From IMG/VR virus record IMGVR_UViG_3300025327_000178, positions 1-20,114 of that record: a stretch of DNA of 20,114 nucleotides, one strand, 5' to 3'. Positions within the stretch are counted from its first letter, which is position 1; the number at the start of each line of letters is the position of its first letter. Both the position numbers and the translations under genes were made by a program. The notes below the pieces were generated by a model. The model was not told where the DNA came from, did no database searches, and worked only from the letters and a program-made list of their open reading frames with translations. The stretch comes from a virus. Below, one piece after another: positions 2,730 to 20,017 of this stretch.

Positions 2730-2972
2730 ATGGTGCCCGGCCCTGTCAGCGACAGCTACGACCCCGAGTTCGGCACCGGAGCGAACGCCCGCGAGGTGGC
2801 CGAGGCGATGCGCGAAGTCCTCGCGCGGGTCGGCCACCCGCTCGGGCCCGGACTGCATCCGATCCTCCAAGTCGTCCGCGGGCCGAAGGGCAAGAGGCGG
2901 TCGATGGCCTTCTCCGAACGCGACCTGCGGATTATCCGCTTCGGCCTCCACCGCGCCCTGGAGTCCATATGA
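2730..2972 (+). CDS. hypothetical protein, 80 aa
   Basis: ATG 2730 follows an AGGAGA motif at 2721-2726. The product has a disordered N-terminus (VPGPVSDSYDPEFGTGAN), a helix AREVAEAMREVLARVG, and a C-terminal helical part with SERDLRIIRFGLHRALESI. I recognise no family. The stop overlaps the next ATG (ATGA 2969-2972). A competing ATG at 2726 in another frame reads an arginine/proline-rich shadow and is less convincing as a start. Confidence 0.5.
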   Translation: MVPGPVSDSYDPEFGTGANAREVAEAMREVLARVGHPLGPGLHPILQVVRGPKGKRRSMAFSERDLRIIRFGLHRALESI

Positions 2973-3298
2973 TGGCGCGTATCGAATGGTTGGATGCATC
3001 GGGCGGGGCGATGAAACATCCGATTGAGAGGTCTTGGCTGGCGATCCGAGGCATGACGAAGGAACGAAGGATCGGGATTCGTAACCTTGGTCGTCCGCTG
3101 ATCGGGCTTGAACTCTATGCGGAAGAGAATGGCGTGACTACAGTCTATTTTAAGCGGGCCGGAAAAGCTCGCAGGTATGTTCGAGGACCACTCCGTCTCG
3201 GCGATTTGCGGCACGGGGAATCAAGGATGTTCTTGGTTAGGGAAACCGCAACGGGGATTGAGGGTCCAGCGTCTTCGATTTCAGTCAGAGAGACGTGA
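2969..3298 (+). CDS. hypothetical protein, 109 aa, lower GC
   Basis: Starts at ATG 2969 (ATGA overlap) or the next codon ATG 2972. The 109-residue product is beta-rich and basic (ERSWLAIRGMTKERRIGIRN, then GLELYAEENGVTTVYFKRAG and ATGIEGPASSISV). No family is recognised. The gene is visibly less GC-rich than the genes on either side, with third positions no longer strongly G/C, which suggests recent acquisition from a different source. The open frame runs on upstream to 2642, but the upstream part is arginine/proline-rich out-of-frame translation of the two preceding genes. Confidence 0.55.
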   Translation: MMARIEWLDASGGAMKHPIERSWLAIRGMTKERRIGIRNLGRPLIGLELYAEENGVTTVYFKRAGKARRYVRGPLRLGDLRHGESRMFLVRETATGIEGPASSISVRET

Positions 3299-3330
3299 AA
3301 TACGGAGGACAGTGGAGCCAAGGAGCTAAC

Positions 3331-3510
3331 ATGCCGCCGCCCACGAACCTCAACGCCGTCGCCCGCCGCCTCACCCTGGAGGAGGGCCGCAAGGTCAGCC
3401 TCCCCATCGGCCAGGTGAAGGAGGTCCTGCGCCTGGCCCTCCGCTGGCTCGCCGAGCTGGAGCCGGAGGAGGTCGCGCGGGTCCTGCGGCGGCACCGGGG
3501 GCGGGCGTGA
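3331..3510 (+). CDS. hypothetical helical protein, 59 aa
   Basis: ATG 3331 has a good Shine-Dalgarno sequence (AAGGAG, 3320-3325), so I prefer it to the in-frame GTG at 3295. The 59-residue product is mostly helical (LTLEEGRKVSLPIGQVKEVL, then WLAELEPEEVARVLRRHRG). It looks like a small soluble phage protein of unknown role. It ends in a GTGA overlap with the following gene (3507-3510). The 32 bases before the start hold only the ribosome-binding site. Confidence 0.55.
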   Translation: MPPPTNLNAVARRLTLEEGRKVSLPIGQVKEVLRLALRWLAELEPEEVARVLRRHRGRA

Positions 3511-3860
3511 CGCCGCACGAACCCGGCTGCCCGCTCGTCAATGCGTATCCGCTCCACGCGATGGCCGACGGCTCGCCGTGCTCTTGGTGCGCGGGTTTCC
3601 GCGTCGGCTGCGACGAGGGGGCGAAACTCGGCAACGCCCAAGTGGCCCTGGCGGACGCCTTCACGCGCGGGCACAAAGCGGGTAGGGCCGATGGGGCGCG
3701 CGAGGCGACCGACCTGCTCGACTCCGCTTTGGGCGCCATCGCCAACGCGGGCGGGGGGGACTGGACGACGCAGACGCCAGAGTGGCAAGACGCAGCCGCG
3801 AGGTGGCGTGACGCTTTCCATAGGTCACTACCCGCGCACATGCCGGAGCCGCCGCGATGA
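3507..3860 (+). CDS. hypothetical protein with CxxC, 117 aa
   Basis: GTG start in a GTGA overlap. The N-terminal third contains CSWCAGFRVGC, a possible zinc or redox site. The rest is alanine-rich and helical (FTRGHKAGRADGAREATDLL) and resembles a short coiled segment. The C-terminus is HMPEPPR, almost the same as the ending of the next gene (TPEPPR), because of a 19-bp direct repeat covering both gene ends. I recognise no family. A second frame over the same DNA (from 3541) is arginine-rich and judged a shadow. Confidence 0.5.
   Translation: MTPHEPGCPLVNAYPLHAMADGSPCSWCAGFRVGCDEGAKLGNAQVALADAFTRGHKAGRADGAREATDLLDSALGAIANAGGGDWTTQTPEWQDAAARWRDAFHRSLPAHMPEPPR
3842..3860 (+). repeat. 19-bp direct repeat, copy 1
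   Basis: The 19 bases GCCGGAGCCGCCGCGATGA occur here and again identically at 4030-4048. Each copy encodes the last residues of one gene (PEPPR), its stop, and the overlapping ATG of the next, so it works as a complete stop/start coupling junction. Confidence 0.85.
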
Positions 3861-4048
3861 GCGACCGCAAACCGGAACACGGGGAGATCGTCGTGGTCAC
3901 GTATCCGGCGAGCAAGCGCCGACGCCGTTGGTGCGGTACGTGTTCTATGTGGACATGGGAGACGGGCTGGCTGGGGAGCAATATCTGGCGTCATGGTAGG
4001 GGGAGTCGCACGAGGGAATGCCAGGCCACGCCGGAGCCGCCGCGATGA
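3857..4048 (+). CDS. hypothetical protein, possibly DUF551-like
   Basis: ATGA overlap at both ends. The 63-residue product begins MSDRKPEHGEIVVVTYPASK, continues through a W/C-rich centre (CGTCSMWTWETGWLG) and ends ECQATPEPPR. The layout of an early P-x-x-G-E-I-V-V-V-T-Y strand, a tryptophan-rich middle and a PEPP tail is reminiscent of the small DUF551 phage proteins, but this is recall from pattern and uncertain. A neighbouring frame also stays open to 3999, so a historic frameshift cannot be ruled out. Confidence 0.45.
   Translation: MSDRKPEHGEIVVVTYPASKRRRRWCGTCSMWTWETGWLGSNIWRHGRGSRTRECQATPEPPR
4030..4048 (+). repeat. 19-bp direct repeat, copy 2
   Basis: Exact second copy of the repeat at 3842-3860, 188 bp downstream. 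It again spans the end of one gene (PEPPR, TGA) and the ATG of the next. The preceding bases differ in part (acat versus ccac), so the identity ends sharply at the 5' side. Confidence 0.85.
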
Positions 4049-4215
4049 CGCGCGATACCGCCGTACCGAACCTCTGTGCCGTGCATCCATGGCGTGCCGC
4101 TGCCATCTTGTCCCGCTATGATGATAAGACCCCCTTATGTACGCTGTGCTGGGATGCGGAACGGTCGGGCATAAGCGTGAAAGAGTACGAGCGCTGCTTG
4201 GCGGCGGGTCGATGA
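4045..4215 (+). CDS. small CxxH/CxxC zinc-binding protein
   Basis: Starts at ATG 4045 in an ATGA overlap; an in-frame ATG at 4018 exists but lies inside the preceding gene and has no advantage. The 56-residue product has CAVHP near residue 11 and CTLCWDAE near residue 32, a CxxH plus CxxC zinc-binding pattern, then a helix ending YERCLAAGR. Function unknown. It couples by ATGA to the resolvase-like gene. Confidence 0.5.
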   Translation: MTRDTAVPNLCAVHPWRAAAILSRYDDKTPLCTLCWDAERSGISVKEYERCLAAGR

Positions 4216-4532
4216 GCGGCCGGGCCAACAAGGAGGCCGGCAAGGCCTTGGAGCGCTATGTCGCGTCTCTGCATCCCCAAGGCCGACGCTATCCTGCGGA
4301 TACGGGGGGGCCGGTGGATGTGGAGTGGCCCGGTGTGGTTTTCCAGTGCAAGCACCGAGCGGCGCTCTCCTTGGGCGAGCTCACCCGGTTAGTGGAAGAT
4401 CGTCCGGCCGGCGCCTACCATGTGCTCGCCGTGAAGCACCGCCGCGGCAAGGGCGTGGAGAGTCCCGTGCTGTTTGTCCTGCATGAGCTGGAGTTTCTGC
4501 GGCTCATGCTTGCGGCGGGGATGGGGGGATGA
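4212..4532 (+). CDS. PD-(D/E)XK nuclease, Hjc-like resolvase
   Basis: A 106-residue protein arranged like the archaeal/phage Holliday-junction resolvase (Hjc) branch of the PD-(D/E)XK superfamily. It has an N-terminal helix with NKEAGKALERYV carrying the early conserved glutamate, a basic loop (GRRYPADTGG), then VDVEW (Asp36) and VVFQCKH with the Gln45-x-Lys47 form of the E/QxK motif. A helix and two further strands follow (AYHVLAVKHRRGKG, PVLFVLHELEFL). It would cleave branched or recombining DNA during replication or before packaging. The length fits the compact family. It overlaps the upstream gene (4212-4215) and the methylase gene (4529-4532), so the three are co-translated. VRR-NUC or another PD-(D/E)XK subgroup is the alternative. 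Confidence 0.65.
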   Translation: MSGRANKEAGKALERYVASLHPQGRRYPADTGGPVDVEWPGVVFQCKHRAALSLGELTRLVEDRPAGAYHVLAVKHRRGKGVESPVLFVLHELEFLRLMLAAGMGG

Positions 4533-5710
4533 CCTGGACCATCCACGAAGGCGATGCCTTGACCATCCTCCGCACCCTGCCCGATGCGCACGTCCAGTGC
4601 GTTGTCACCAGTCCGCCGTACTGGGGCCTCCGCGACTACGGTATGGCCGGTCAACTCGGCCTGGAGCCCACGCCCGAGGCGAACGTGGCGAAGATGGTCG
4701 AGGTGTTCCGCGAGGTGCGGCGCGTCCTCCGGGACGACGGAACGCTGTGGCTGAATATGGGGGATGGGTACGCCTCTGATCAGAAAGGTTCCGGCGGACA
4801 CAATGCATTCGCGGGGGCCAAACGCACCGAAGGAATGTTCTTTGAGTCCCGCAAGATGAACCACGGCCTCAAGCCCAAAGACCTCATCGGTATGCCCTGG
4901 CGCCTCGCCTTTGCCCTCCAAGCCGATGGCTGGTGGCTGCGCTCGGACATCATTTGGGCCAAGCCGAATCCCATGCCTGAGAGCGTGACGGATCGGCCGA
5001 CGAAGGCGCATGAGTACGTGTTCCTGCTGACGAAGAGCGAGAGGTACTACTACGACGCGGATGCGGTGCGGGAGGTGACCGGCCGGGAAGCATCATGGGA
5101 TGGATGGAAAGAGAAACGATTGGTGGCTGCGGCAACTTCAGGAAATCTCGTCGAAGGGAAGGCCGCGTGGAAGTGTCCTTCTTTCATTCACCCAGCCGGC
5201 CGCAACCTCCGCACGGTCTGGACCATCCCCACCGAGCCCTTCCCAGAGGCCCATTTCGCCACCTTCCCCCGCAGGCTCGTGCTGCCCTGTATCTTGGCCG
5301 GCACCTCGGCCAAGGGCTGTTGCGCGCATTGCGGGGCATCGTGGGAGCGGATCGTGGAGGCCGCGGGTGGAACGCTGGGCATGGACATGCAGCGGAGCGC
5401 GGAAAGTGGGAGGAGTCGGACAAGCGATTCTGGGTTTCGAAAACTCCAGACCACCTATCAACGTAACACCATTGGCTGGCGCCCCACCTGTCGCTGTGCC
5501 CAACTCTACGATCCCGAGCGCCAGCCATGCCGAGTTCTTGATCCGTTCTGTGGCTCGGGGACGGTGGGCGTGGTGGCCAGGCATCTCGGACGCGACTTCA
5601 TCGGCATCGAACTGAAGCCCGAGGAGATGGCGCGGCGGCGCATCCAGCACCCCGAGCTGGATCCGGTGGACGAAGTGGCCGAGGGGCAGTTGGGCCTGTT
5701 CGAGTTCTGA
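4529..5710 (+). CDS. DNA adenine/N4-cytosine methyltransferase
   Basis: A 393-residue SAM-dependent DNA methyltransferase of the N6-adenine/N4-cytosine type (PF01555 family). The catalytic motif IV TSPPYWGLRDYG is at residues 27-38 and the SAM-binding motif I DPFCGSGT at 338-345, followed by FIGIEL; this order marks the beta class. GTLWLNMGDGYA and KPNPMPESVTDRPTKAHEYVF style motifs fill the middle. An insertion carries CCAHC (264-268) and CRC (321-323), forming a probable zinc ribbon that may help target recognition, as in many phage methylases. No restriction endonuclease gene lies beside it, so it probably protects phage DNA or marks it for regulation. Recognition sequence unknown. It overlaps the resolvase gene by ATGA and is followed after three bases by the replication gene. 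Confidence 0.9.
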   Translation: MTWTIHEGDALTILRTLPDAHVQCVVTSPPYWGLRDYGMAGQLGLEPTPEANVAKMVEVFREVRRVLRDDGTLWLNMGDGYASDQKGSGGHNAFAGAKRTEGMFFESRKMNHGLKPKDLIGMPWRLAFALQADGWWLRSDIIWAKPNPMPESVTDRPTKAHEYVFLLTKSERYYYDADAVREVTGREASWDGWKEKRLVAAATSGNLVEGKAAWKCPSFIHPAGRNLRTVWTIPTEPFPEAHFATFPRRLVLPCILAGTSAKGCCAHCGASWERIVEAAGGTLGMDMQRSAESGRSRTSDSGFRKLQTTYQRNTIGWRPTCRCAQLYDPERQPCRVLDPFCGSGTVGVVARHLGRDFIGIELKPEEMARRRIQHPELDPVDEVAEGQLGLFEF

Positions 5711-5713
5711 TCC

Positions 5714-6412
5714 ATGGCCGACCAAGGCCGTTGGTTCAAGCTATGGGTGAGCGCGTTGGCCGACCCGTCCTTGGACAACTTGTCCATCGCCCAGTTCGGT
5801 CGCTGGGCCAAGTTGGGCACCTATGCCAAGGCCCACGGACAGGATGGAACGGTTACACTCGTTTCACCGGCAAAGGTACTGGTTTCGATGCTCCAGTGTG
5901 ACGATTTTCAGCACATGATCGCGTGTATTGAGGAGATGCCAAATCTCACTGTTTCACTTGGAACGAATACAGTCGTTTCATTTCGCAACTGGGCGAAATA
6001 CCAAGGGGATTTCAGCACCGCCAGAGTTCGCAAATTTCGCCAAATGAAACGGTCTAAGAGGAGAGGAGAAGAGAAGAGAGGAGAAGAGAAGAGAGGAGAG
6101 GGAAAAGACGTAGGCGCGGAGCCGGGCAAGCCGGCCGCGCCCATTCCGCCCACCCTTGCTGCCTGGCTGGCAGAGACCCGTCACCTGCAGCCGCTAGGAA
6201 ACGGCCGATGCGCCGGACTGTGGCAGACGCTGGAACGGGCCTACGACCAGTACCCTTGGCTGTTCTTCGAGGACGAGATCCGCAAAGCGGATGCCTGGCT
6301 GGAGGCGAATCCCAGCCGCCGTCCGACACCCAAGGGCCTGGGCCGGTTCATGCGGTCGTGGCTGGAGCGGGCCGTGGAGATGGGGAGGAGGCACCATGCC
6401 AAAGGCGCGTGA
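5714..6412 (+). CDS. replication initiator / replisome organizer-like
   Basis: A 232-residue protein. Residues 1-110 (RWFKLWVSALADPSLDNLS, GRWAKLGTYAKAHGQDG, then FRNWAKYQGDFSTARVRKFR) resemble the winged-helix N-terminal domain of phage replisome organizers and DnaT/DnaD-like initiators. Residues 111-130 are a charged linker of RGEEK repeats. The C-terminal half (PPTLAAWLAETRHL, then FFEDEIRKADAWLEANPSRR and GRFMRSWLERA) looks like the helicase-loader contact domain common to such proteins. It would bind the phage origin and recruit host helicase. The gene's middle is less GC-rich and holds iteron-like motifs and a tandem purine repeat, as expected if the origin lies inside the initiator gene. 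Family recognition is by pattern, not search. Confidence 0.65.
   Translation: MADQGRWFKLWVSALADPSLDNLSIAQFGRWAKLGTYAKAHGQDGTVTLVSPAKVLVSMLQCDDFQHMIACIEEMPNLTVSLGTNTVVSFRNWAKYQGDFSTARVRKFRQMKRSKRRGEEKRGEEKRGEGKDVGAEPGKPAAPIPPTLAAWLAETRHLQPLGNGRCAGLWQTLERAYDQYPWLFFEDEIRKADAWLEANPSRRPTPKGLGRFMRSWLERAVEMGRRHHAKGA
5861..6108. other. candidate replication origin inside initiator gene
   Basis: GTTTCA occurs at 5861-5866, 5951-5956 and 5975-5980, the related GTTTC at 5882-5886, and the inverted form TGAAAC at 6045-6050. The surrounding bases are visibly less GC-rich than the rest of the block. An uninterrupted purine run at 6056-6108 follows. Lambdoid phages place their iterons inside the initiator gene next to an easily melted segment, so the layout fits an origin. 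This is inference from arrangement only; the motif is short and the spacing irregular. Confidence 0.3.
6061..6100 (+). repeat. 15-bp tandem purine repeat
   Basis: Two perfect copies of GAGAGGAGAAGAGAA (6061-6075, 6076-6090) and a partial third (6091-6100), inside a 53-base all-purine strand. Because 15 is a multiple of three the repeat stays in frame and encodes RGEEK units in the linker of the initiator-like protein. Confidence 0.9.
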
Positions 6413-7788: not shown

Positions 7789-7982
7789 TGCTGAAGGGTT
7801 GCAGGGCCAGATTGGGAGATCCGAGGGGGGGGGAGGGGCAAAAATCGCGCCCCTCGCAAGGGCGTGGGATGCCCCCCACGCGTAGTACACCCCCCAGCGT
7901 TTTCCAGCCCATGGCCCACTTTATCCGCGCCAAGAAAATCCTTGCCATGGTCCGCGACGATCCCGGGGGGGCGCGGGACTGA
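7788..7982 (+). CDS. possible small gene between terminase subunits
   Basis: A 64-codon frame from GTG 7788 (sharing the G of the preceding TAG) to TGA 7980-7982, which overlaps the terminase ATG. The last part (FQPMAHFIRAKKILAMVRDD) looks protein-like; the first part is an arginine/glycine/proline stretch read through a run of nine Gs (7825-7833). A shorter version from ATG 7911 would be only 23 residues. It may be a real coupled microprotein or simply an open frame in the intergenic leader. No family recognised. Confidence 0.3.
   Translation: MLKGCRARLGDPRGGEGQKSRPSQGRGMPPTRSTPPSVFQPMAHFIRAKKILAMVRDDPGGARD
7825..7855 (+). other. G-run and GC-rich hairpin before large terminase
   Basis: A run of nine Gs (7825-7833) leads into a stem GAGGGGC (7833-7839) / GCCCCTC (7849-7855) with a 9-base A-rich loop. 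No T-run follows, so it is not a standard terminator. It could slow readthrough or affect translation; the G-run is also a place where sequencing or slippage errors arise. Confidence 0.45.
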
Positions 7983-9421
7983 TGGCGCGACGGAGACGCA
8001 CGGAGGCGCTGCACCTGCCGCAGCGCAGCACCATCAGCCTGGATGCGGACACGTGGCCGCGGTCGTACCAGCGGCCCTTGCTGGCGGCCCTGCTGGGGCA
8101 TCGCTTCGATCGGTTCATGGCGGTGTGGCATCGGGGGGCGGGGAAGGACTACACCACCCTCTACGCGACAGTGATCCTCATGCTCCAGCGGCCGGGCAAC
8201 TATTACTTCGTCTACCCGGAGGCGGCGCAGGGGCGGCGGATGCTGTGGGATGGGTTGGATGAGCAGGGGCGGCCGTTCCTGGACATCTTCCCGCCCGAGC
8301 TCGTGGTGGAGAAGAACGAGACGGAGATGATGATTCGCTTCAAGCCGGTGGGAACCCACACGGCGGGGGCGACGTGGCAGCTCATCGGGGCGGACGATCC
8401 GGACCGGCACCGGGGCATGAACCCGGCGGGGATCGTGTTCTCGGAGTGGCCGCACATCCCGGAGAGCATGTACACGAAGATCGCGGAGCCCCGGCTGCTC
8501 ACGAACCAAGGATGGGCCGTGTTCATCTTCACTCCCGAGGGTAAGAACCACGCGCACACCATGTGGAAGATGGCGCAGGGGCAGCCCCGGACCTGGTTCA
8601 CGCAGGTGCTCACGGTGGACGACACGAAGAAGGATGCGCCGGGCGAGGCGGGGACCCCGGTGGTGAGCGCCGCGCAGATCCAGGCCCTGCGGGCCGCGGG
8701 GCGCGCCGAGGAGATCATCCAGCAGGAATACTTTTGCTCCTTCGAGGGCTTCCTGCGGGGCACGGTGTACGGGGACGTGATCACCACCGCCCGGAAGGAG
8801 GGGCGGATCGGGGCGTTCCCATACCGGGCGGACCTCCGGGTCCACACGGCCTGGGACATCGGGCTGTCGGATGGGACCGCCATCTGGTTCTACCAGACGG
8901 ACGGCCGGCGGTTCAATTTCATCGACTTCCTCTTTGAGCGGGGCAAGGGCCTGCACCACTTCGCCCACGTGGTGCAGGTGCGGCGGCCGGGGGAGACGGG
9001 GCGGCCCTACGTCTACGGGGACCACACGGGGCCCCATGATCTGGAGATCGTGGAATACAGCAGCCAGCGGGGCCAGACGCGGCGCGAGGTGGCCCGGGAG
9101 TTGGGGCTGGACTTCCGGGTGGCCCCCAAGCTCCTGGTGGCCGAGGGGATCGACATGGCCCGCCGGCTCTTCAGCCGCTGCTACTTCCACGAGACGACCT
9201 GCGGGGCTGGCCTGGACCACCTGGGCGCCTACCACTACGCCTGGGAGGAGCGGAAGCAGGAATACGGCAAGGAGCCGGTGCATGACGAGCACAGCCACGC
9301 CGCGGACGCCTTCCGGACCTTCGCGGTGTGTCCCACCGAGCACAACGAGGGCCGCGACTACCGGCCGCCCCAGCGCTACGCGCGGTCGGAGTGGAACCCC
9401 CACGGGGCCCCGGTGAGGTGA
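7982..9421 (+). CDS. terL: terminase large subunit
   Basis: A 479-residue phage packaging motor. The ATPase half has an adenine-side segment (WPRSYQRPLLAALLG), a Walker A variant WHRGAGKDYT (residues 49-58), Walker B IVFSEW with catalytic Glu155, and a coupling motif FIFTPEGKNH. The RNase H-like nuclease half shows the acidic triad: Asp292 in AWDIGLSDGT, Asp347 in YVYGDHTG, and Asp442 in HDEHSHAADAFR. It translocates genomic DNA into the prohead and cuts it. Length is normal and both active sites look intact. The Walker A ending in GKD rather than GKS/T also occurs in phage terminases. The start ATG overlaps the upstream frame's stop (TGATG). Confidence 0.93.
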   Translation: MARRRRTEALHLPQRSTISLDADTWPRSYQRPLLAALLGHRFDRFMAVWHRGAGKDYTTLYATVILMLQRPGNYYFVYPEAAQGRRMLWDGLDEQGRPFLDIFPPELVVEKNETEMMIRFKPVGTHTAGATWQLIGADDPDRHRGMNPAGIVFSEWPHIPESMYTKIAEPRLLTNQGWAVFIFTPEGKNHAHTMWKMAQGQPRTWFTQVLTVDDTKKDAPGEAGTPVVSAAQIQALRAAGRAEEIIQQEYFCSFEGFLRGTVYGDVITTARKEGRIGAFPYRADLRVHTAWDIGLSDGTAIWFYQTDGRRFNFIDFLFERGKGLHHFAHVVQVRRPGETGRPYVYGDHTGPHDLEIVEYSSQRGQTRREVARELGLDFRVAPKLLVAEGIDMARRLFSRCYFHETTCGAGLDHLGAYHYAWEERKQEYGKEPVHDEHSHAADAFRTFAVCPTEHNEGRDYRPPQRYARSEWNPHGAPVR

Positions 9422-9422
9422 G

Positions 9423-9590
9423 ATGCCCCTGGCCAAGTACGATCGGCACTTCGGCGGCAAGGGGGGCGCGGCCAAGGCGCATGCCGAGATGGCGAAGGAG
9501 TACGGGGCGGAGAAGGGCGAGGCGGTATTCTACGCCACCATGAACAAGCGCAAGAAACGGCGGCGCCGCAGCGTGATGGGGAAGGGCTGA
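9423..9590 (+). CDS. small basic protein between terminase and portal
   Basis: A 55-residue ORF starting at ATG 9423, two bases after the terminase stop, and ending in a TGATG overlap with the portal gene, so no coding gap remains. It begins MPLAKYDRHFGGKGGAAKAH, continues EMAKEYGAEKGEAVFYATMN and ends in a run of K/R (KRKKRRRRSVMGKG). Short proteins with this G-x-x-K-G-x-x-V-F-Y-A-T-x-N-K-R-K signature are, to my recollection, common near podovirus portals. The basic tail would suit binding of DNA or of the acidic prohead interior. Function unknown. Confidence 0.75.
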   Translation: MPLAKYDRHFGGKGGAAKAHAEMAKEYGAEKGEAVFYATMNKRKKRRRRSVMGKG

Positions 9591-11257
9591 TGCCTGCAGA
9601 CGTGAAAGCCCTCTTGGCCCGCTGGGACCGGCTGGACGCCGACCGCCGGACGAACTGGGACGCGGACTTCCTGGAGTTGGCGAACTACCTGTTGCCGACC
9701 CGGGCCATGGCCATCAACCTCACCATCCCCGGGGTCCGCATCACCCGGCAGCTCTTCGACTCGGAGGGCATCACGGCGCCCACGCTGCTGGCCTCCAGCC
9801 TCCACGGGAATCTCAGCAACCCCTCCACCAAGTGGTTCACCTTCTACGTCACCCCGGAGGAGTTGAACGAGGACAACGCGGTGCAGGACTGGCTGGAAGC
9901 GGTGGCCCGCCGGGTCACCCGGGTCCTGGACAGCAGCAATTTCCATTACGAGATCGGGGAGACCTACCTGGAGGGCCCGGTGTTCGGCACCGCGGCCATC
10001 ATCGAGGAGGAGGAGACCGCCGCGACACCCGGCCTGCCACCCCGCCCCCTTTTCACCGCGCTGCCCATCGGCACCTACGGGATCTCGGAGAACGAGAAGG
10101 GGCGGGTGGACGTGCTTTTTTACCAGTCGGTGATGACCGTCCGGGCCTGCCTGCGGGAGTGGGGCGAGGCCAACCATGCGGATCTGCAGGAGAAAGTCAC
10201 GGAGAAGCCGGACGACCTGGTGACGCTTCTCCACGCCATCTACCCGCGGAACGATCGGGACGAGCGCTACGGCCGGCGCGACCGGCGCAACAAGCCCTTC
10301 GCCTCCTGCTGGGTGGACGTGGAGCGCAAGCACATCATCCGCGAGGGGGGCTACGAGGAGTTCCCGGGCGCGGTGTGGCGCTGGCGCAAACAGCCGGGGG
10401 AGACCTATGGGCGCGGCCAGGGCCATCTGGCGCTCCCGGATATCAAGACTTTGAACCGGGAAGTTGAGCTCTTGCTTCAGGGTCTGGCCCTGGACATCGC
10501 GCCGCCCCTCTTCGAATTGGACCGCACCGTGGTCGGAGACCTCCTGTGGGAACCCCTGGCCCGGAACGTGGTCCGCGACAAGCAGGGCGTCTGGACCCTG
10601 CCCTCCGGGGTCCGCTACGACGTGGCCAAGATGAGCTTCGACCGGCTGGAGACGAAAATCCGGAAAATCTTTTTCGTGGACCAGATCCAGGCCCTGCCCC
10701 CCAGCACCCAGGGGCCCAGCTACATGACCGCCTTCGAGGTGGCCAAGCGCGTGGAACAGGAGTTCAAGCTCCTGGGGCCCGCCTACGGGCGCGTCACGGG
10801 GGAGCTGCACGCTCCCATCATCGAGCGCACGGCCCGGATGCTGGCGCGGGCCGGCGGCCTGCCCCCGCCCCCGCCGGGCCTGCGGATGCCCGGCGTGGAG
10901 ATGCACATCAAGTACCTGGGCCCCATGGCCCGCGCCCAGGAGGCCGAGACCCTGACGGGGATCGCCCAGAAGAACCTCTGGGTACAGACCGTGCTCCAGA
11001 TGAACCCCAACGACCAGAGCGTGCTCGACAACTTCGACTTCGACCAGGAGGCCCTGGTGGTGGCCCGGGGCTACGGCGTGCCGGCCAGCGTCACCCGAGG
11101 GAAGGATGCCGTGGAGCAGATCCGCCAGCAGCGGATCCAGGCGCAGGCGGCCCAGCAGCAGAAGATGGACCTGATGGCGGTGGCCGAAGGGGCCGGCAAG
11201 GCGGCTCCCATGGTGCAGGCGCTGCACGCGGGCGCCGCGGAGGAGATCCCGGCATGA
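9590..11257 (+). CDS. portal / head-to-tail connector protein
   Basis: A 555-residue protein of the podovirus head-to-tail connector family (PF12236 type). Recognisable parts are the N-terminal DFLELANYLLPTR, the TLLASSLHGNLSNPSTKWFT motif after the first strand region, a central GPVFGTAAIIEEEE/YQSVMT segment, the GETYGRGQGHLALPDIKTLN portal wing motif, and SYMTAFEVAKRVEQEF, the helix lining the channel. The C-terminus is a glutamine/alanine-rich coiled helix (EQIRQQRIQAQAAQQQ) like the barrel of this family. It forms the dodecameric ring through which DNA enters and onto which the short tail assembles. Length fits the family. It begins in a TGATG overlap and ends in ATGA with the next gene. 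Confidence 0.9.
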   Translation: MPADVKALLARWDRLDADRRTNWDADFLELANYLLPTRAMAINLTIPGVRITRQLFDSEGITAPTLLASSLHGNLSNPSTKWFTFYVTPEELNEDNAVQDWLEAVARRVTRVLDSSNFHYEIGETYLEGPVFGTAAIIEEEETAATPGLPPRPLFTALPIGTYGISENEKGRVDVLFYQSVMTVRACLREWGEANHADLQEKVTEKPDDLVTLLHAIYPRNDRDERYGRRDRRNKPFASCWVDVERKHIIREGGYEEFPGAVWRWRKQPGETYGRGQGHLALPDIKTLNREVELLLQGLALDIAPPLFELDRTVVGDLLWEPLARNVVRDKQGVWTLPSGVRYDVAKMSFDRLETKIRKIFFVDQIQALPPSTQGPSYMTAFEVAKRVEQEFKLLGPAYGRVTGELHAPIIERTARMLARAGGLPPPPPGLRMPGVEMHIKYLGPMARAQEAETLTGIAQKNLWVQTVLQMNPNDQSVLDNFDFDQEALVVARGYGVPASVTRGKDAVEQIRQQRIQAQAAQQQKMDLMAVAEGAGKAAPMVQALHAGAAEEIPA

Positions 11258-11813: not shown

Positions 11814-12689
11814 ATGGCCTTCGAGATGGTCACCGAGACCCCGCCCGCCAGTCCCCCGGAGACCTCGCCGCCGGCGGCGCCCGCTTCGCCTGCGGAGCCC
11901 GCAGCGGATTGGCGGGCGGGTCTTCCGGACGACCTCAAGGCCCACAAGGGTCTGGAGAAGTTCAAGGGCGTGGACGCGCTGGCCAAGTCGTACCTCGAGG
12001 TAGAGAAGGCCTACACCGGGAAGCTCGAGGGCCACGTCAAGCTGCCCGTCCCGGACGCGCAGGGCAAGCTGAACGACGCCGAGGTGGCGGCCTTCCGGAA
12101 GGCCACCGGCGTGCCCGAGGCGGCGGAGGGCTACCAGATCCAGGTCTCCGAGGACCTGGCCGACCTGGTGCCGGTCGAGGCGGTGGGCCAGTTCACGCCG
12201 CTCTTCCATCGGCTCAACATCCCGGCGCCCGCGGCCCAGGCCATCGTCCAGGGGTTCGCGGAGTATTCCCAGGCGCAGCTTGCGGCCCTGGATCAGGGCT
12301 ACCGGGCCAAGCTCAACGAGCTGAAGGAGGAATGGGGCGAGCCCACCTTCAATCGGCGCCTGGCCCTGGCCAAGAAGGTGTGGGAGACGGAGCTGCCGGA
12401 AAGCCTGCAGACGGTCTTCGACCGGACGCGGCTCGGCAGCCATCCCGATCTGATCGCCTTCCTGGCCAAGGTCGGGGAGGACCTGGCCGAGAGCGGCCAC
12501 ATCGACGCGCAACTCACCCTGGGATCGCCCACCGGGGAACAGTTGGAGAAGCGGAAGGCCGAGATCATGGCCGATCCCGCCTTTGGCAACGACCGCGAGG
12601 CGGCCCTCAACCCCGCGAAGCACGCGGCGTTGCTGAAGGAGTACCAGGGGATCCTGGCGCAGTTGAGTCCTGCGCCGCTGCGAAAGTAG
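11814..12689 (+). CDS. capsid scaffolding protein
   Basis: A 291-residue protein with a proline/alanine-rich disordered N-terminus (residues 1-40), a DWRAGLPDDLKAHKGLEKFK segment, a helix pair (VDALAKSYLEVEKAYTGKLE), the GYQIQVSEDLAD strand-loop region and long helices (EYSQAQLAALDQGYRAKLNE). The C-terminal ADPAFGNDREAALNPAKHAA ends with a short basic tail. This is the usual plan of scaffold proteins of short-tailed phages, which shape the prohead through coiled helices and bind the capsid through the C-terminus. It lies directly upstream of the major capsid gene, as in BPP-1-like phages. Its stop codon forms part of a large stem-loop. Confidence 0.8.
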   Translation: MAFEMVTETPPASPPETSPPAAPASPAEPAADWRAGLPDDLKAHKGLEKFKGVDALAKSYLEVEKAYTGKLEGHVKLPVPDAQGKLNDAEVAAFRKATGVPEAAEGYQIQVSEDLADLVPVEAVGQFTPLFHRLNIPAPAAQAIVQGFAEYSQAQLAALDQGYRAKLNELKEEWGEPTFNRRLALAKKVWETELPESLQTVFDRTRLGSHPDLIAFLAKVGEDLAESGHIDAQLTLGSPTGEQLEKRKAEIMADPAFGNDREAALNPAKHAALLKEYQGILAQLSPAPLRK

Positions 12690-12804: not shown

Positions 12805-12819
12805 GTGAGATGAGTGGTT

Positions 12820-12838
12820 TCCGCATCTTACGGAGGGG
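12820..12838 (+). promoter_or_regulatory. capsid gene ribosome-binding site in small hairpin
   Basis: The strong Shine-Dalgarno GGAGGGG (12832-12838) sits 8 bases before the capsid ATG at 12847. TCCG (12820-12823) can pair with CGGA (12831-12834), partly covering it. This site decides for ATG 12847 over the in-frame GTG 12814. Confidence 0.5.
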
Positions 12839-12846
12839 ACCGCGAC

Positions 12847-13755
12847 ATGGCTGACAGCATCACTGCCGTACAGATCAAGGCGTACACCGAGCTGGTGCTC
12901 ATGCGAGCGCAGCAGACGGAGAGCCGGCTGCGCGGCTGGGCGCGGACCGAGGACAACGTCCGCGGGGAGTCGGTGTCGTTCGACCGGATCGGCATGGTCG
13001 AGATGGCCCCCAAGCCGGGCCAGAACGCCCCGACCCCGAACATGGACCCCCAGCACACGCGGCGCTGGGCCACCCTGGCGCCCTATCAGGCCAACATCTA
13101 CCTGGACCGCAGCATCAAGCCCACCCTGATCACGGATCCCACCAGCGATTACGTGAAGGCCCTGGCGGCCGCCATCGGCCGGCAGTGGGATCGGTTCGTG
13201 CTCCAGGCCGCCTTGGGCACGGCGATCACTGGGCCCATCGGCCCGGGCGGCGACGCCACGCATTCGGGCACCGAGACCTGGCCCGTGACGGACCGGAAGG
13301 CTGTCTCCCACCGGATCGCCTCCGGCGCCGTGGGGCTGACCATCGCCAAGCTGCGCCAGGCCAAGAACATCCTGGACGCGCTGATGGTGGGCAGCGACCG
13401 GGTGTTCGTGTGGGATTCCTTCGGGCAGGAGAACCTGCTGGCCACCACCGAGGTCACCAGCGCGGATTACAACACCGTGCGGGCCCTGGTCAAAGGCGAC
13501 GTCAACACCTACCTGGGGTTCGACTTCACGATGGTGGATTCGGCCCTCATGTCCGTGACCGCCGGCGTGGTCTCGGGGGTCGCCATGGAACGCGGCGCCG
13601 TGGGCCTGGGCATCGGCGAGGACAAGACCATCCGCATCTCCGAGCGCCCGGACCTGTCGTACTCCTGGCAGGTCTACGGCGAGCTCATGGGCGGCGCCGT
13701 GCGGCGCGATGGCGAGCGCGTGGTGGAGGTCCAGTACCTGCAGGAGAACCTGTAA
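12847..13755 (+). CDS. major capsid protein
   Basis: A 302-residue protein with the features of the HK97-fold capsid family of BPP-1-like short-tailed phages (Phage_capsid_2 type). It has an N-terminal helix ITAVQIKAYTELVLMRAQQT, ESRLRGWARTEDNVRGESVS with FDRIG, then a P-domain helix VGLTIAKLRQAKNILDALMV, the RVFVWDSFGQENLLATTEVT strand-helix region and a beta-rich A-domain. The ending RISERPDLSYSWQVYGELMG, VRRDGERVVEVQYLQEN is typical for these capsids. It forms the icosahedral shell. The start ATG 12847 follows a strong ribosome-binding site, in keeping with high expression. No maturation protease is fused or adjacent. Confidence 0.85.
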   Translation: MADSITAVQIKAYTELVLMRAQQTESRLRGWARTEDNVRGESVSFDRIGMVEMAPKPGQNAPTPNMDPQHTRRWATLAPYQANIYLDRSIKPTLITDPTSDYVKALAAAIGRQWDRFVLQAALGTAITGPIGPGGDATHSGTETWPVTDRKAVSHRIASGAVGLTIAKLRQAKNILDALMVGSDRVFVWDSFGQENLLATTEVTSADYNTVRALVKGDVNTYLGFDFTMVDSALMSVTAGVVSGVAMERGAVGLGIGEDKTIRISERPDLSYSWQVYGELMGGAVRRDGERVVEVQYLQENL

Positions 13756-14353: not shown

Positions 14354-14830
14354 ATGAAGAAGACGCTGCTGATCGCCTTGGTGTCCCTCCTGCTGGTGGC
14401 GGGCACGCTGTGGGCCACCGATGGCACCTGGCTCTACCCCATTCCGACCCTGGGCGGGATCACCGCGGGGGACGTGATCATCGTGGATGCGGCGGGACTG
14501 CGTCTGACGAACAACAGCCGCATCCGCCTGCTGGCCGCCACGCCGCCCACCTGCGCGGCGACCTACGCCGGGTGCGGCACCACGCACACCATCCGGGGCA
14601 ATGATTCCGCGGGGGTCATCACCCTGGGGGGCACCGTGGCGACGACATTGAGCTTGACATTCAACACCGCCTGGACCGCGGCGCCATCCTGTCTCGCCCA
14701 GAAGCAAACCGGCACCGCCGGCAGCGTGGTGCAACAGGTGGATACCGGGACGACCACCATGAATATCATCGTGGCCACCGGGGTCGCCACCAACGATCGG
14801 ATCGCCTACCAGTGCATGGGCACGGCTTAG
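14354..14830 (+). CDS. signal-peptide protein, fibre-like beta domain
   Basis: A 158-residue protein with a clear signal peptide: basic MKK, hydrophobic TLLIALVSLLLVAGT and a cleavage site near LWA-TDG (residues 20-22). The mature part is threonine/alanine-rich and beta-sheeted (GGTVATTLSLTFNTAWTAAP, then TMNIIVATGVATNDRIAYQC). This F-x-x-A-W-x-x-A-P-x-C and GD/ND-R-I-A-Y-x-C pattern is one I associate with repeat-like domains in phage fibre or surface proteins. Export is unusual for a virion protein, so it may act in the host periplasm or envelope. GGAGG at 14343-14347 supports ATG 14354. Its end overlaps the O-antigen ligase-like gene. Confidence 0.65.
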   Translation: MKKTLLIALVSLLLVAGTLWATDGTWLYPIPTLGGITAGDVIIVDAAGLRLTNNSRIRLLAATPPTCAATYAGCGTTHTIRGNDSAGVITLGGTVATTLSLTFNTAWTAAPSCLAQKQTGTAGSVVQQVDTGTTTMNIIVATGVATNDRIAYQCMGTA

Positions 14831-15828
14831 CCATCCGCGGCGCACTCCTGGCAGCCCTGATGGCCATCGTGCCCCTCTGGTACGGCCTGGCGGCCACCCC
14901 GGCCGGCCATCTCGTCGTCCAGGCCGTCCCCGTGTCCTACGTCCTGCTGATGGGGATGCTCTTGGCCGTCTGCGCCTCGTCGGGCGACCTCTGGGCTGGG
15001 CTCCTGGGGGCCTACCTGATCCTCCGGATGCTGGTCACGCCCTTTCCCGATGGGTTCAATACCGTCGTGTTCGCCATCCTCGGCCTGGGCCTTTACGCCG
15101 GTGCCGGCGCGCTGGGGAACCCTTGGCGCCTGCGCCTGCGCTGCGTGGCGCTGGCCGTGGGCCTGGTGCAGGCGGCCTGGGTGATCGCCCACGCCGCTGG
15201 CCTGCCGGGGTTCACCTGGGGCGCCTGGTCTGGCGGCACGCTGGGCAACTCGAACTATGCGGGGGCCTACCTGGCCATCGCCTCCGTCTGGTCGCCCGTC
15301 TGGCTCCTGCCGGCCTTCGCCATCGGCATCCTGGCCACCAAGTCCTTCTTGGCGGCCCTGGCGGCCACAGCGGCCGCCGCCGTGCGGTTCCCTTGGGGCT
15401 GGCGGTGGATCCTGTCGGGAGGCGCCTTCGTGGCCCTCGCCTGGTGGCACCGCGGCGGGGGCCTCCAACCCGTCTTCGAGCGCCTCCTCATCTGGCGCTG
15501 GGCGGTCACCGAGTGGGCCCGGGGTGGTCTGGTCTTCGGCAAGGGCATCGGGTCGTGGGGCATGGCCCAGCCTCGCGTTGGGCAGCACCAACGCTTTGAC
15601 GCAGCGCACAATGACCTGTTGCAGCTTGGGTATGAGGGGGGTCTGGTCGCGCTGGCCCTGGTGGGAGCCTGGCTCTGGTCCCACCGCCGGGCCTTCCAGG
15701 CGCCCGAGTCCGCCGCCCTGCTGGCGGCCGTGCTGATCGAGTCCCTGGGCATGTTCCCCTTCCAGCTTCCCGCCGTGGCCGTGCTGGCGCTGCCGGCGCT
15801 GGCGTTCGCCACCCGGAGGGCCCCATGA
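14812..15828 (+). CDS. O-antigen ligase/polymerase-like membrane protein (Wzy_C)
   Basis: A 338-residue polytopic membrane protein with about nine to ten hydrophobic segments (roughly residues 8-25, 33-56, 58-76, 81-100, 108-130, 146-168, 172-190, 195-210, 272-290, 298-335). The WaaL/Wzy_C signature is visible: GTLGNSNYAGAYLAIAS near 143, ERLLIWRWAVTEW and VFGKGIGSWG near 225-248, then AHNDLLQLGYEGGLVALAL from residue 265, whose AHN corresponds to the conserved periplasmic histidine. This family moves polymerised glycans from undecaprenyl carriers to lipid A-core or polymerises them. It is shorter than most cellular members. The GTG 14812 start lies 19 bases inside the preceding gene with no ribosome-binding site, so coupling is likely; ATG 14860 is an alternative. 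No other glycan genes lie nearby. Confidence 0.75.
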   Translation: MHGHGLAIRGALLAALMAIVPLWYGLAATPAGHLVVQAVPVSYVLLMGMLLAVCASSGDLWAGLLGAYLILRMLVTPFPDGFNTVVFAILGLGLYAGAGALGNPWRLRLRCVALAVGLVQAAWVIAHAAGLPGFTWGAWSGGTLGNSNYAGAYLAIASVWSPVWLLPAFAIGILATKSFLAALAATAAAAVRFPWGWRWILSGGAFVALAWWHRGGGLQPVFERLLIWRWAVTEWARGGLVFGKGIGSWGMAQPRVGQHQRFDAAHNDLLQLGYEGGLVALALVGAWLWSHRRAFQAPESAALLAAVLIESLGMFPFQLPAVAVLALPALAFATRRAP

Positions 15829-17072: not shown

Positions 17073-18179
17073 ATGACCGACTTCGCACGCGGCCTGTTTG
17101 GTGATACGGGGATCACCCTTGACGGTGTGACGCCGACCATGACGAATTTCGTGCTGGACGCGGCCACGGACGCCGCGGAGTGGGTGTTCCAGATGCCCGA
17201 GGCCGCGACGATCACGACCATCCTCTTCCGATACGGCCTACGCACGGGGACCCCACCGACGTTCAAGGCCAGTTTGCAGGGGGTGAACAACACAACAGGG
17301 GCCCCCAACGGCACCATTCTCGGCGGCGGCAGTCCCGCATCCGTGACGTTCACCCCACCCGCAGACGCCACATGGGACGGCACTATCCGCGCCGTCACGT
17401 TAGATAACAGCATCGCGCTCACGCGGGGGCAACTCGTCGCCATCGTGATCGCCTATGACTCCGGAACGATTGACGGGACCAATAATAGTTCGTACACGAC
17501 GCACATCACGCAGCTTGGACCTGTTCACGTGCGGCCCTACGCGATCCAGAACAACGCCGGATCACGGGCCCACCAGTCCGAGAAAGCCGTCTTCGGCCTG
17601 CGGAGCGCCAGCAAAACCTATGGGTTCCCGCTGAAGGCCTACACGACCACCCTGTTCGATGACGCCGATACTCCCGACGAGTATGCGATGAGGTTCAACT
17701 TCGACGCAGGGTACGGATCGACGTTTACGGTGGCCGGCGGTCGTTTGTCGTGGCGGGTCGGCGCGGCCGCACTGACATCGACGCTCACGCTCTACGATGG
17801 GACCACGGCCCTGCAAACCGTGACGATCGACCACAGCGAACTCACCACGTCGCAAAACACCGAACGCCTATGCTCCTTTTACTTTGACGAGGTTACACTG
17901 TCCACGCTGAACTTTGGGAGCGAGTATCGACTGAGCCTGTTCCTCAACAGCGGCGGCGCGACAGGGCAGGACGATGCCTTGGACACACTGGAGTTCGAGA
18001 CGGCTGGCGACCTGACCTGTCTGCCCTATGGTACGCAGTGCTACCTGTCCACCCGCACCGATGCGGGCGCATGGACGGACGTGCCCACCCGGCGGCCGGT
18101 GATGGGGCTGTACTTGGGGGACTGGACGGCCGGTGGAGCGGCGCAACCCGTAGGCCAAGCGCTGGCAACGTATCTATGA
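17073..18179 (+). CDS. large beta-rich virion protein
   Basis: A 368-residue protein built from two similar-sized beta-rich halves. Residues 1-190 start with TDFARGLFGDTGITLDG and contain RYGLRTGTPPTFKASLQGVN and a TGAPNGTILGGG loop. The second half includes FNFDAGYGSTFTVAGGRLSW, TLTLYDGTTALQTVTIDHSE and STLNFGSEYRLSLFLNSGG. The pattern (strands with G-x-P-x-G-T loops) is that of carbohydrate-binding-module-like beta sandwiches often found in phage tail or fibre proteins. No enzyme motif is seen. It ends GDWTAGGAAQPVGQALATYL and overlaps the tailspike-like gene by ATGA. From about 17400 on, GC is visibly lower than in the head genes. Confidence 0.6.
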   Translation: MTDFARGLFGDTGITLDGVTPTMTNFVLDAATDAAEWVFQMPEAATITTILFRYGLRTGTPPTFKASLQGVNNTTGAPNGTILGGGSPASVTFTPPADATWDGTIRAVTLDNSIALTRGQLVAIVIAYDSGTIDGTNNSSYTTHITQLGPVHVRPYAIQNNAGSRAHQSEKAVFGLRSASKTYGFPLKAYTTTLFDDADTPDEYAMRFNFDAGYGSTFTVAGGRLSWRVGAAALTSTLTLYDGTTALQTVTIDHSELTTSQNTERLCSFYFDEVTLSTLNFGSEYRLSLFLNSGGATGQDDALDTLEFETAGDLTCLPYGTQCYLSTRTDAGAWTDVPTRRPVMGLYLGDWTAGGAAQPVGQALATYL

Positions 18180-20017
18180 GGGCGTATCGCCTAGTCGGAG
18201 TCCCCTGGTGGCGTCACCTGCCTGTCTCCTCGGCGGGACGCACCCACGGTCACATCCTCGAACGCGCCCCACGCGATGTGGCCGATGTGCTGCGGGAGAC
18301 GTGGTACTACGCCAAGAAGGGCTGTCTCGCACCCGTCGTTGCGGACACCTACCGTTTCCTGTCAGAGCGCACGCGGCGTATGCTGGCCTTCCCGCCACGG
18401 GGTGGGGTGTGGGCTCCGCCCATCGGCATCCCCATGCCGTCCTTCGGCATTACCGAGGCGGCCGGTGCGGCGACCGAAACCGTGACGACGCTCTCAGGGA
18501 CGAAGACGTTGAGTCCTGGGGACGTGATCCAGATCGACCCTGGAACGTACACGGCAGACGTGATCTTTACGGGTGGTGGGACGGCTGGGAATCCCGCCGT
18601 TGTTCGTGGTGTTGCAGGGAACCTTCCGTCCATCAGCGGTGCGTGGAACACCTCCAACGGAGGCGGAACAATCGGGCTGGTCTATACCATCTTCGAGAAC
18701 TTGGTGTTCGAGGGCGCATCGAGTGCGGGGATCGGTGTGGTGGGGACGGGAACGCACCACCTTTGCGTTCGAGATTGCACGTTCCGGGACCTGCCCTTCG
18801 TCTCGGCAAACTCAGCCACAGGCATTACGCCTGCTCAGGGCGCCGTCATCAACGACATTCTGTTTCTGCGGTGTGTCTTCAATAACCTCGGCATGAACTT
18901 CGAGACCTGGGACTTCATCGACCAGGACTACCATGGAATCGGCCTGAGCCTGTACTCCCGGACGCCACCGACGGAAATCAAGAATGTGTGGGTGCTCGAA
19001 TGTGATGGGCAATTGATCAGCGGAAACCTGATCCAGACCACCGGACGACCCATCCAGGATGCTTCGGAGATGGGGTATATCAATCACATCTATGTCGGCC
19101 GCTGCACGGGAGGACAAAATCGTCAGGCCCCGATTGGCTTAAAGCAATGCGTGGACATCGTATGCTCCCAGAACACCTTCAACTTCTGTCGGGGACACGG
19201 CGGCAGTGCGGGCGAGGCCATCGCATACCAGTACGCGAAGGACCGCATGTGGTTAATCTTCAATCATTTCTTCGACTGCGGCAACGGGACGCGCGCGAGC
19301 GATTCCGGCGCCTCCGACGCGACGATGAACAGCTACATGATTGGCAATCTCATTCACGATACCTACCAGAACCCCACGGACTGGTTGGAGGATTATCCAC
19401 ACTGGGGCAGCCCGAATGGTTGGGGCATCACACGGCACGCTGCGCCAGGTGGCAACCTTTTCACGGTCAACAACACCCTTGCCAATGTCCATAACGGGAT
19501 CGAGTGCGTATTCAATCCGGACGGCATGCACTCGTTGAACGACATCATCGCCTTCCTAAAGGCGCCAGAGGGCGGGGCACCTCAAGCGAGGTTCACAAAC
19601 ATGGGTCAAGCTCCTGGCGCGTACATGTCGATGGATTACGCGCTGCTGCATCCTGGGGTGCAATCGTGGTTCACCCGTTGGGCGCAAGCAACGTATACCA
19701 CACTGGCGGGATTCCAAAGTGGTCAGGGCCAGTGCGCTCATGCGACCACAAATGACCCGTTGTTTGTCGCCGCCCCCCAGGACAACTATCGCCTCCTTAC
19801 GGGGTCCCCAGCGAAGGACGCTGGAACGCTCGCTGCTGCCTATGCCACGTTCCTGGCGAACTACGGCATCAGTGTCCAGGTGGACCAGGACAACGGCGAT
19901 AGACCGCGAGGAGATGGTTGGGATATGGGTGCGTTTGAACTCGTCGCGCAACAAGCCGAGGGTTCTCTGGTGGGTCACACCACGACCATCGACCGCTCCT
20001 CATGGAGGTACGGCTAG
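18176..20017 (+). CDS. right-handed beta-helix tailspike-like protein
   Basis: A 613-residue protein. After an N-terminal adaptor (about residues 1-100: AYRLVGVPWWRHLPVSSAGR, then a helical stretch RETWYYAKKGCLAP and LSERTRRMLAFPP) it has a pectate-lyase-like start (TKTLSPGDVIQIDPGTYTAD). Successive beta-helix coils follow (YTIFENLVFEGASSAGIGVV, CVRDCTFRDLPFV, NDILFLRCVFNNLG, HIYVGRCTGG). The end, DPLFVAAPQDNYRLLTGSPA then GDRPRGDGWDMGAFE, is the closing pattern of many such beta-helix proteins. These proteins trimerise on phage tails and bind or cleave surface polysaccharide; catalytic residues cannot be named. ATG 18176 is chosen for the ATGA overlap; the frame upstream to 18038 is a shadow. 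Its GC is visibly lower than in the head genes, as in exchangeable receptor-binding modules. Confidence 0.8.
   Translation: MRAYRLVGVPWWRHLPVSSAGRTHGHILERAPRDVADVLRETWYYAKKGCLAPVVADTYRFLSERTRRMLAFPPRGGVWAPPIGIPMPSFGITEAAGAATETVTTLSGTKTLSPGDVIQIDPGTYTADVIFTGGGTAGNPAVVRGVAGNLPSISGAWNTSNGGGTIGLVYTIFENLVFEGASSAGIGVVGTGTHHLCVRDCTFRDLPFVSANSATGITPAQGAVINDILFLRCVFNNLGMNFETWDFIDQDYHGIGLSLYSRTPPTEIKNVWVLECDGQLISGNLIQTTGRPIQDASEMGYINHIYVGRCTGGQNRQAPIGLKQCVDIVCSQNTFNFCRGHGGSAGEAIAYQYAKDRMWLIFNHFFDCGNGTRASDSGASDATMNSYMIGNLIHDTYQNPTDWLEDYPHWGSPNGWGITRHAAPGGNLFTVNNTLANVHNGIECVFNPDGMHSLNDIIAFLKAPEGGAPQARFTNMGQAPGAYMSMDYALLHPGVQSWFTRWAQATYTTLAGFQSGQGQCAHATTNDPLFVAAPQDNYRLLTGSPAKDAGTLAAAYATFLANYGISVQVDQDNGDRPRGDGWDMGAFELVAQQAEGSLVGHTTTIDRSSWRYG

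Follow-up and report, generated by a model that had tools for sequence, protein, structure and literature searches.

Organization of the locus

The window, i.e., the whole 20,114-base stretch of an IMG/VR virus record analyzed here, carries a series of phage head genes on one strand (Table 1), and among annotated phages, HTVC010P-type podoviruses have the most similar capsid (~38% identity). Among these genes lies a real, phage-borne open reading frame (ORF) at 14812–15828, for which ATG 14857 could serve as an alternative start. Its 5′ end shares 19 bp with the upstream gene and its 3′ end 4 bp (ATGA) with the downstream gene, and these two overlaps make translational coupling with its neighbors plausible, as had been proposed when the gene was first singled out from the letters of the sequence. 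An identical copy (100%) is present in two further IMG/VR contigs from other metagenomes, and exact-peptide searches across viral and bacterial genomes recovered only this same virus. With the gene found in three contigs and phage genes on both sides, host DNA or a contig-edge artefact is ruled out, in agreement with the original prediction. That prediction had also placed the gene in a phage structural operon, which holds, and directly behind a cement-like gene, which does not: the immediate upstream neighbor instead encodes a small protein with a signal peptide. The cement-position protein itself had no match in Pfam and PHROG searches.

Table 1 Genes and motifs around the membrane protein gene, in window coordinates
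Feature	Coordinates	Strand	Remarks
Terminase large subunit	7982..9421	+	Pfam Terminase_6N 3.4e-6; phrog_2 9e-29
Portal / head-tail connector	9590..11257	+	Pfam Head-tail_con 5.7e-105
Scaffold/protease-like protein	11814..12689	+	phrog_458 protease 7e-14; phrog_19777 head scaffolding 0.0014
Major capsid protein	12814..13755	+	Pfam Phage_capsid_2 1.7e-64; phrog_3437 major head protein
Cement-position protein, 168 aa	13791..14297	+	Same place as in HTVC010P and other relatives
Small, predicted exported protein, 158 aa (proposed partner/acceptor)	14354..14830	+	Signal peptide MKKTLLIALVSLLLVAGTLWA, then a Ser/Thr-rich, Lys/Arg-poor domain
Wzy_C/O-antigen-ligase superfamily membrane protein	14812..15828	+	GTG start, 338 aa
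GTLGNSNY, residues 142-149	15235..15258	+	GTxGNxN loop of Wzy_C proteins
TKS, residues 176-178	15337..15345	+	Arg-free region opposite R191 of WaaL 7tpg in the alignment
RLLIW, residues 224-228	15481..15495	+	R224 corresponds to R265 of WaaL 7tpg
GKGIGSW, residues 243-249	15538..15558	+	G243, G245 invariant
AHND, residues 265-268	15604..15615	+	H266 corresponds to H313 of the 7tpg chain, proposed catalytic His
Downstream neighbor, 125 aa	15825..16202	+	ATGA overlap; signal-peptide-like N-terminus

The 338-aa product is hydrophobic, with 7 strong transmembrane windows in its hydropathy profile and 15 helices in the AlphaFold model, which together with the GTLGNSNY and AHND motifs bears out its initial description as a polytopic protein carrying these signatures. 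Elsewhere in the window, positions 18038–20017 (+) encode a right-handed beta-helix protein (Pfam Beta_helix 7.5e-4; start codon uncertain) that is probably a tailspike or pectate-lyase-like fibre, and an ORF at the left edge (5–835, +) gives the sequence impression of a papain-type cysteine peptidase. The same phage is also represented by contig 3300025164_001380 (hereafter L014), which extends past the right end of the window. There, a GT2-like glycosyltransferase gene (L014:5835–6584, −; weak match, 9e-4) and, on the same strand, a Methyltransf_24 O-methyltransferase gene (L014:4877–5503, −; 2.7e-15) are perhaps linked to glycan handling. L014 further encodes a 671-aa protein (2860–4875, −) with many repeats like LLPDRAPGxxxTAxTAYxxxPxPVELYGG and no family match, as well as a 160-aa ORF (5449–5931, −) with a twin-arginine-like N-terminal segment (SRRGILKG), possibly an exported phage protein.

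Family, fold, and proposed catalytic residues of the membrane protein

Searched alone, the 338-aa protein had no match in Pfam, NCBIfam, PHROGs, or PDB sequences, nor to the PF04932 model. As a comparison set, 17 bacterial loci were fetched by the shared GTxGNxN motif, and PF04932 (Wzy_C) was found in 14/14 of those scanned. To avoid circularity, only residues 191–338, i.e., those outside the selection motif, were tested against the bacterial Wzy_C profile: this segment scored 19.4 bits, while the best of 2000 shuffles reached 8.2 bits and the reversed sequence −2.5 bits, and hhalign gave the comparison with bacterial Wzy_C a probability of 95.8%. The phage relatives among the matches listed (see below) matched the 338-aa protein at phmmer values of 1e-18 to 1e-16. 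An AlphaFold model based on 44 sequences reached a pLDDT of 80.3 and a pTM of 0.78 (an earlier model based on 15 sequences was poor, with a pLDDT of 58.8, and the fold search from it was uninformative). Its first PDB fold match was WaaL of Cupriavidus metallidurans (7TPG/7TPJ; for 7tpg, Foldseek probability 1.00, TM 0.50, and E 1.6e-3, just above 0.001), followed by RodA. When the family profile was compared to PDB sequences, only WaaL 7tpg (1.7e-19) and, equally strongly, the oligosaccharyltransferase 9rmk (2.7e-19) were matched. Based on these profile and model comparisons, we conclude that the protein is a member of the Wzy_C/O-antigen-ligase superfamily, so that both the family originally read from the motifs and the WaaL-like fold expected for it were recovered.

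Domain content alone does not distinguish WaaL, Wzy, and O-oligosaccharyltransferases (O-OTases; PMC12645811). The PglL_A and Wzy_C_2 domains of the PglL/PglS O-OTases had no Pfam match in the 338-aa protein, a difference from these enzymes that is shared with TfpO/TfpM. Within an alignment of 44 members from the matches listed, R224, G243, and G245 were invariant (44/44) and W228 nearly so (43/44), all four columns lying outside the search pattern. H266 was likewise kept in 44/44 of the same members, although the use of an AHN pattern to collect the viral set accounts for part of this conservation. In WaaL and RodA, the His acts as a general base and the Arg binds undecaprenyl pyrophosphate (PMC10449877), and H266 and R224 would by analogy have these roles here. 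The second conserved WaaL Arg (R191 of 7tpg) is absent from the 338-aa protein and from most phage members: F179 takes its position in the alignment, K177 stands two residues earlier, and an Arg is found there in only 12/44 members. Among the periplasmic His/Arg residues on which the original assignment was to be judged, the His and one Arg are thus kept while the R191-equivalent Arg is not. Compared to WaaL, whose acceptor for O antigen is lipid A-core, the phage protein is also shorter and paired with a predicted exported protein.

Wzy_C-type genes across uncultured phages

Next, we searched viral contigs for related genes. The pattern AHN[DE]xL[EQ]x5G retrieved at least 119 viral stretches, about 105 or more of which hold a polytopic ORF with the AHN motif, while scans with the GTxGN pattern were mostly unproductive. 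Overall, Wzy_C-type genes are carried by at least about 100 IMG/VR phage contigs, these being predicted viral sequences, often fragments, with rough gene calls in high-GC loci. The original statement that host glycan loci are the normal setting of this family holds for bacteria, yet such genes are common in uncultured phages as well. The typical gene order among the matches listed is major capsid, none or one further gene, small signal-peptide protein, and Wzy_C. A Head-tail_con portal was found in 8/50 records tested among these matches, and in 5/8 portal-bearing records the Wzy_C gene follows the portal gene in the same orientation at a distance of ~4–5 kb, an arrangement shared by the window.

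A quick tree largely separated the phage from the bacterial members (6 label changes vs 38 in shuffles) and placed the window's protein in a group comprising 51 phage rows and a single bacterial one (support 96). This separation is only suggestive, since phage and bacterial sequences had been collected using different patterns and the tree is long-branched. A tblastn search of 50,697 cultured or deposited phage genomes gave no match for any of the six phage Wzy_C representatives tested, the 338-aa protein among them. Similarly, none of the 80 nearest portal-sharing loci carries a gene of the 14812–15828 type or any other polytopic gene, and the Wzy_C gene is therefore not core to this lineage. 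One candidate in the same place, annotated as a “General glycosylation pathway protein” in MW202572, was rejected, being neither membrane-bound nor related in kind.

Pairing with a gene for a small signal-peptide protein

Among the matches listed, a small signal-peptide ORF directly before the enzyme gene was recurrent in the gene maps. Using a crude signal-peptide rule that 16% of background genes pass, we found a signal peptide in the upstream gene for 60/73 of the listed viral Wzy_C genes that have a coupled upstream ORF vs 85/542 other genes from the same loci (Fisher 2.6e-30; relatedness inflates this and the other pairing P values, with removal limited to exact duplicates). The pattern was stronger still at GC under 0.5 (35/37 vs 42/258 for the background, among the matches listed). 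It was confined to the upstream side, with no enrichment of downstream signal-peptide genes among the matches listed (16/59 vs 96/466, p 0.16). When phages sharing the same capsid type were compared, the capsid gene was followed by a signal-peptide ORF in 12/14 cases with the enzyme vs 2/40 without (p 2e-8). The gap between partner and enzyme genes had a median of 0 bp among the matches listed, and the gene before the pair encodes a PHROG major head protein in 8/10 cases tested, spread over four PHROG families. About 16–21% of the other genes in these loci (the window and many of loci L147–L264) pass the crude rule, and late phage protein export may therefore be broader than the cassette.

For the matches listed, the mature partners are ~158 aa long, rich in Ser/Thr (23% vs 14%), and poor in Lys/Arg. 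They group into two larger families, with 21 and 13 members, and many small ones, and since these families are unrelated, no common acceptor sequence was found. The window's own partner had no Pfam or PHROG match and no assignment to a cement or decoration family, while some other partners appear by sequence to resemble capsid cement/decoration proteins: the one at locus L183, for instance, matched Phage_cement_2 (0.0038) and a head decoration family (7e-4), both weakly. A cultured relative of the family of 13, HTVC106P gp61, shares 42% identity over 109 aa with the mature domain of the partner at locus L166 and is likewise encoded directly downstream of a head protein gene, but lacks both the signal peptide and an accompanying Wzy_C gene. 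A pattern search for partner domains without a signal peptide recovered one locus.

Candidate functions of the two-gene cassette

The position of the enzyme gene directly behind the gene of a small, putatively exported, decoration-like protein in many unrelated uncultured viruses suggests that these phages sugar-coat one of their own proteins. Specifically, the best reading is that of a dedicated oligosaccharyltransferase glycosylating its exported partner, to which we assign a probability of about one half. Of the three functions offered in the original prediction (blocking superinfection, preventing progeny from sticking to debris, and glycosylation of a phage product), genomic evidence favors the last, given the pairing of the enzyme gene with one for a signal-peptide protein, a pairing that the prediction had not recognized. 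The cassette would comprise two genes, one for a Wzy_C-family glycan transferase with a WaaL fold and one, just upstream, for its small exported partner. Expressed late in infection with the head operon, the partner would be exported through the inner membrane. On the periplasmic face, R224 would bind a host lipid-linked glycan by its undecaprenyl-pyrophosphate, H266 would activate the acceptor, and the enzyme would then move the glycan onto the partner, as TfpO, TfpM, and PglS do for adjacently encoded pilins. These O-OTases (TfpO/PilO, TfpM, and PglS) belong to the same Wzy_C/WaaL superfamily, and their substrate is often encoded beside the enzyme (PMC12645811). The phage genes resemble those of the TfpO/TfpM-like enzymes in this respect, with a gene for a predicted exported protein beside the enzyme gene both in the window and in the 60/73 listed cases, and a substrate role for its product would follow by analogy. 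The phage partner differs in that it is no pilin but a seemingly beta-rich, capsid-decoration-like protein encoded in a head operon.

The main alternative is that an O-antigen ligase or polymerase remodels the LPS or another surface glycan of the host late in infection, and thereby blocks superinfection or the sticking of progeny to debris, with the partner acting as a helper or as an independent surface protein. We regard this as credible, if somewhat unlikely. Phage Wzy_C proteins acting in this way are known from D3 (Wzy-beta) and epsilon15 (PMC4815439). Like the gene studied here, these are phage-encoded and carry a Wzy_C motif with essential Arg and His residues, namely Arg254, Arg270, Arg272, and His300 in D3 Wzy-beta (PMC4815439). 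WaaL being the best fold match also fits LPS remodeling, as do the GT2-like glycosyltransferase and O-methyltransferase encoded downstream by the same phage. However, the D3 and epsilon15 proteins operate in lysogens and belong to seroconversion units, the D3 unit consisting of three genes including a polymerase inhibitor (PMC4815439), whereas 14812–15828 sits in a head operon, between the capsid and later structural genes. No unit of the D3/epsilon15 type (polymerase with inhibitor/acetylase) was seen around it, its neighbors being head genes and the signal-peptide protein gene, and LPS remodeling would not require a signal-peptide gene to be paired so strongly, and on the upstream side specifically, with that of the enzyme.

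Alternatively, the partner may be a periplasmic or surface exclusion factor that the Wzy_C protein modifies or anchors to a lipid-linked glycan, i.e., a late superinfection-exclusion device rather than a part of the virion. A signal peptide and a membrane enzyme would suit a product residing in the envelope, and the distribution of partners over many unrelated families would be consistent with such a role. Nevertheless, several partners look like virion decoration proteins, and across phages the pair adjoins capsid genes of different families, which makes this alternative decidedly improbable. Finally, a captured host gene without a selected role, i.e., a passenger or a catalytically dead enzyme, would agree with the absence of the gene from the nearest portal-sharing loci (0/80) and with the loss of the R191-type Arg, but is very improbable given that phage members fall mostly into phage-only groups (6 label changes vs 38 shuffled), that the R224, W228, G243, and G245 columns are nearly invariant outside the search pattern, and that the partner pairing recurs widely.

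Returning to glycosylation of the exported partner, the modified protein may decorate either the cell surface or virions once they are released. It counts against this reading that virions would not encounter a periplasmic protein before lysis. In its most far-reaching form, this reading would have many uncultured tailed phages export a capsid-decoration protein to the host periplasm, glycosylate it there with host glycans through their own dedicated oligosaccharyltransferase, and assemble it onto the particles at lysis, so that the virion wears host-type sugars; we consider this unlikely, although, if true, such host-sugar-coated virions would represent a previously undescribed route of virion glycosylation.

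Both this kind of enzyme and phage Wzy_C proteins were already known. The part of the literature covered by our searches yielded neither a Wzy_C gene grouped with a capsid gene and an exported partner nor a phage oligosaccharyltransferase. For annotators, the family can now be named where Pfam and PHROGs miss it. Taken together, phage Wzy_C enzymes, previously known from a few seroconverting temperate phages, now extend to a recurrent, capsid-adjacent cassette with a predicted exported protein, found in uncultured phages with at least four capsid families. If the pair does consist of an enzyme and its acceptor, it would provide a testable case of phages using host lipid-linked glycans on a product of their own, with relevance to superinfection, virion surface chemistry, and glycoengineering.
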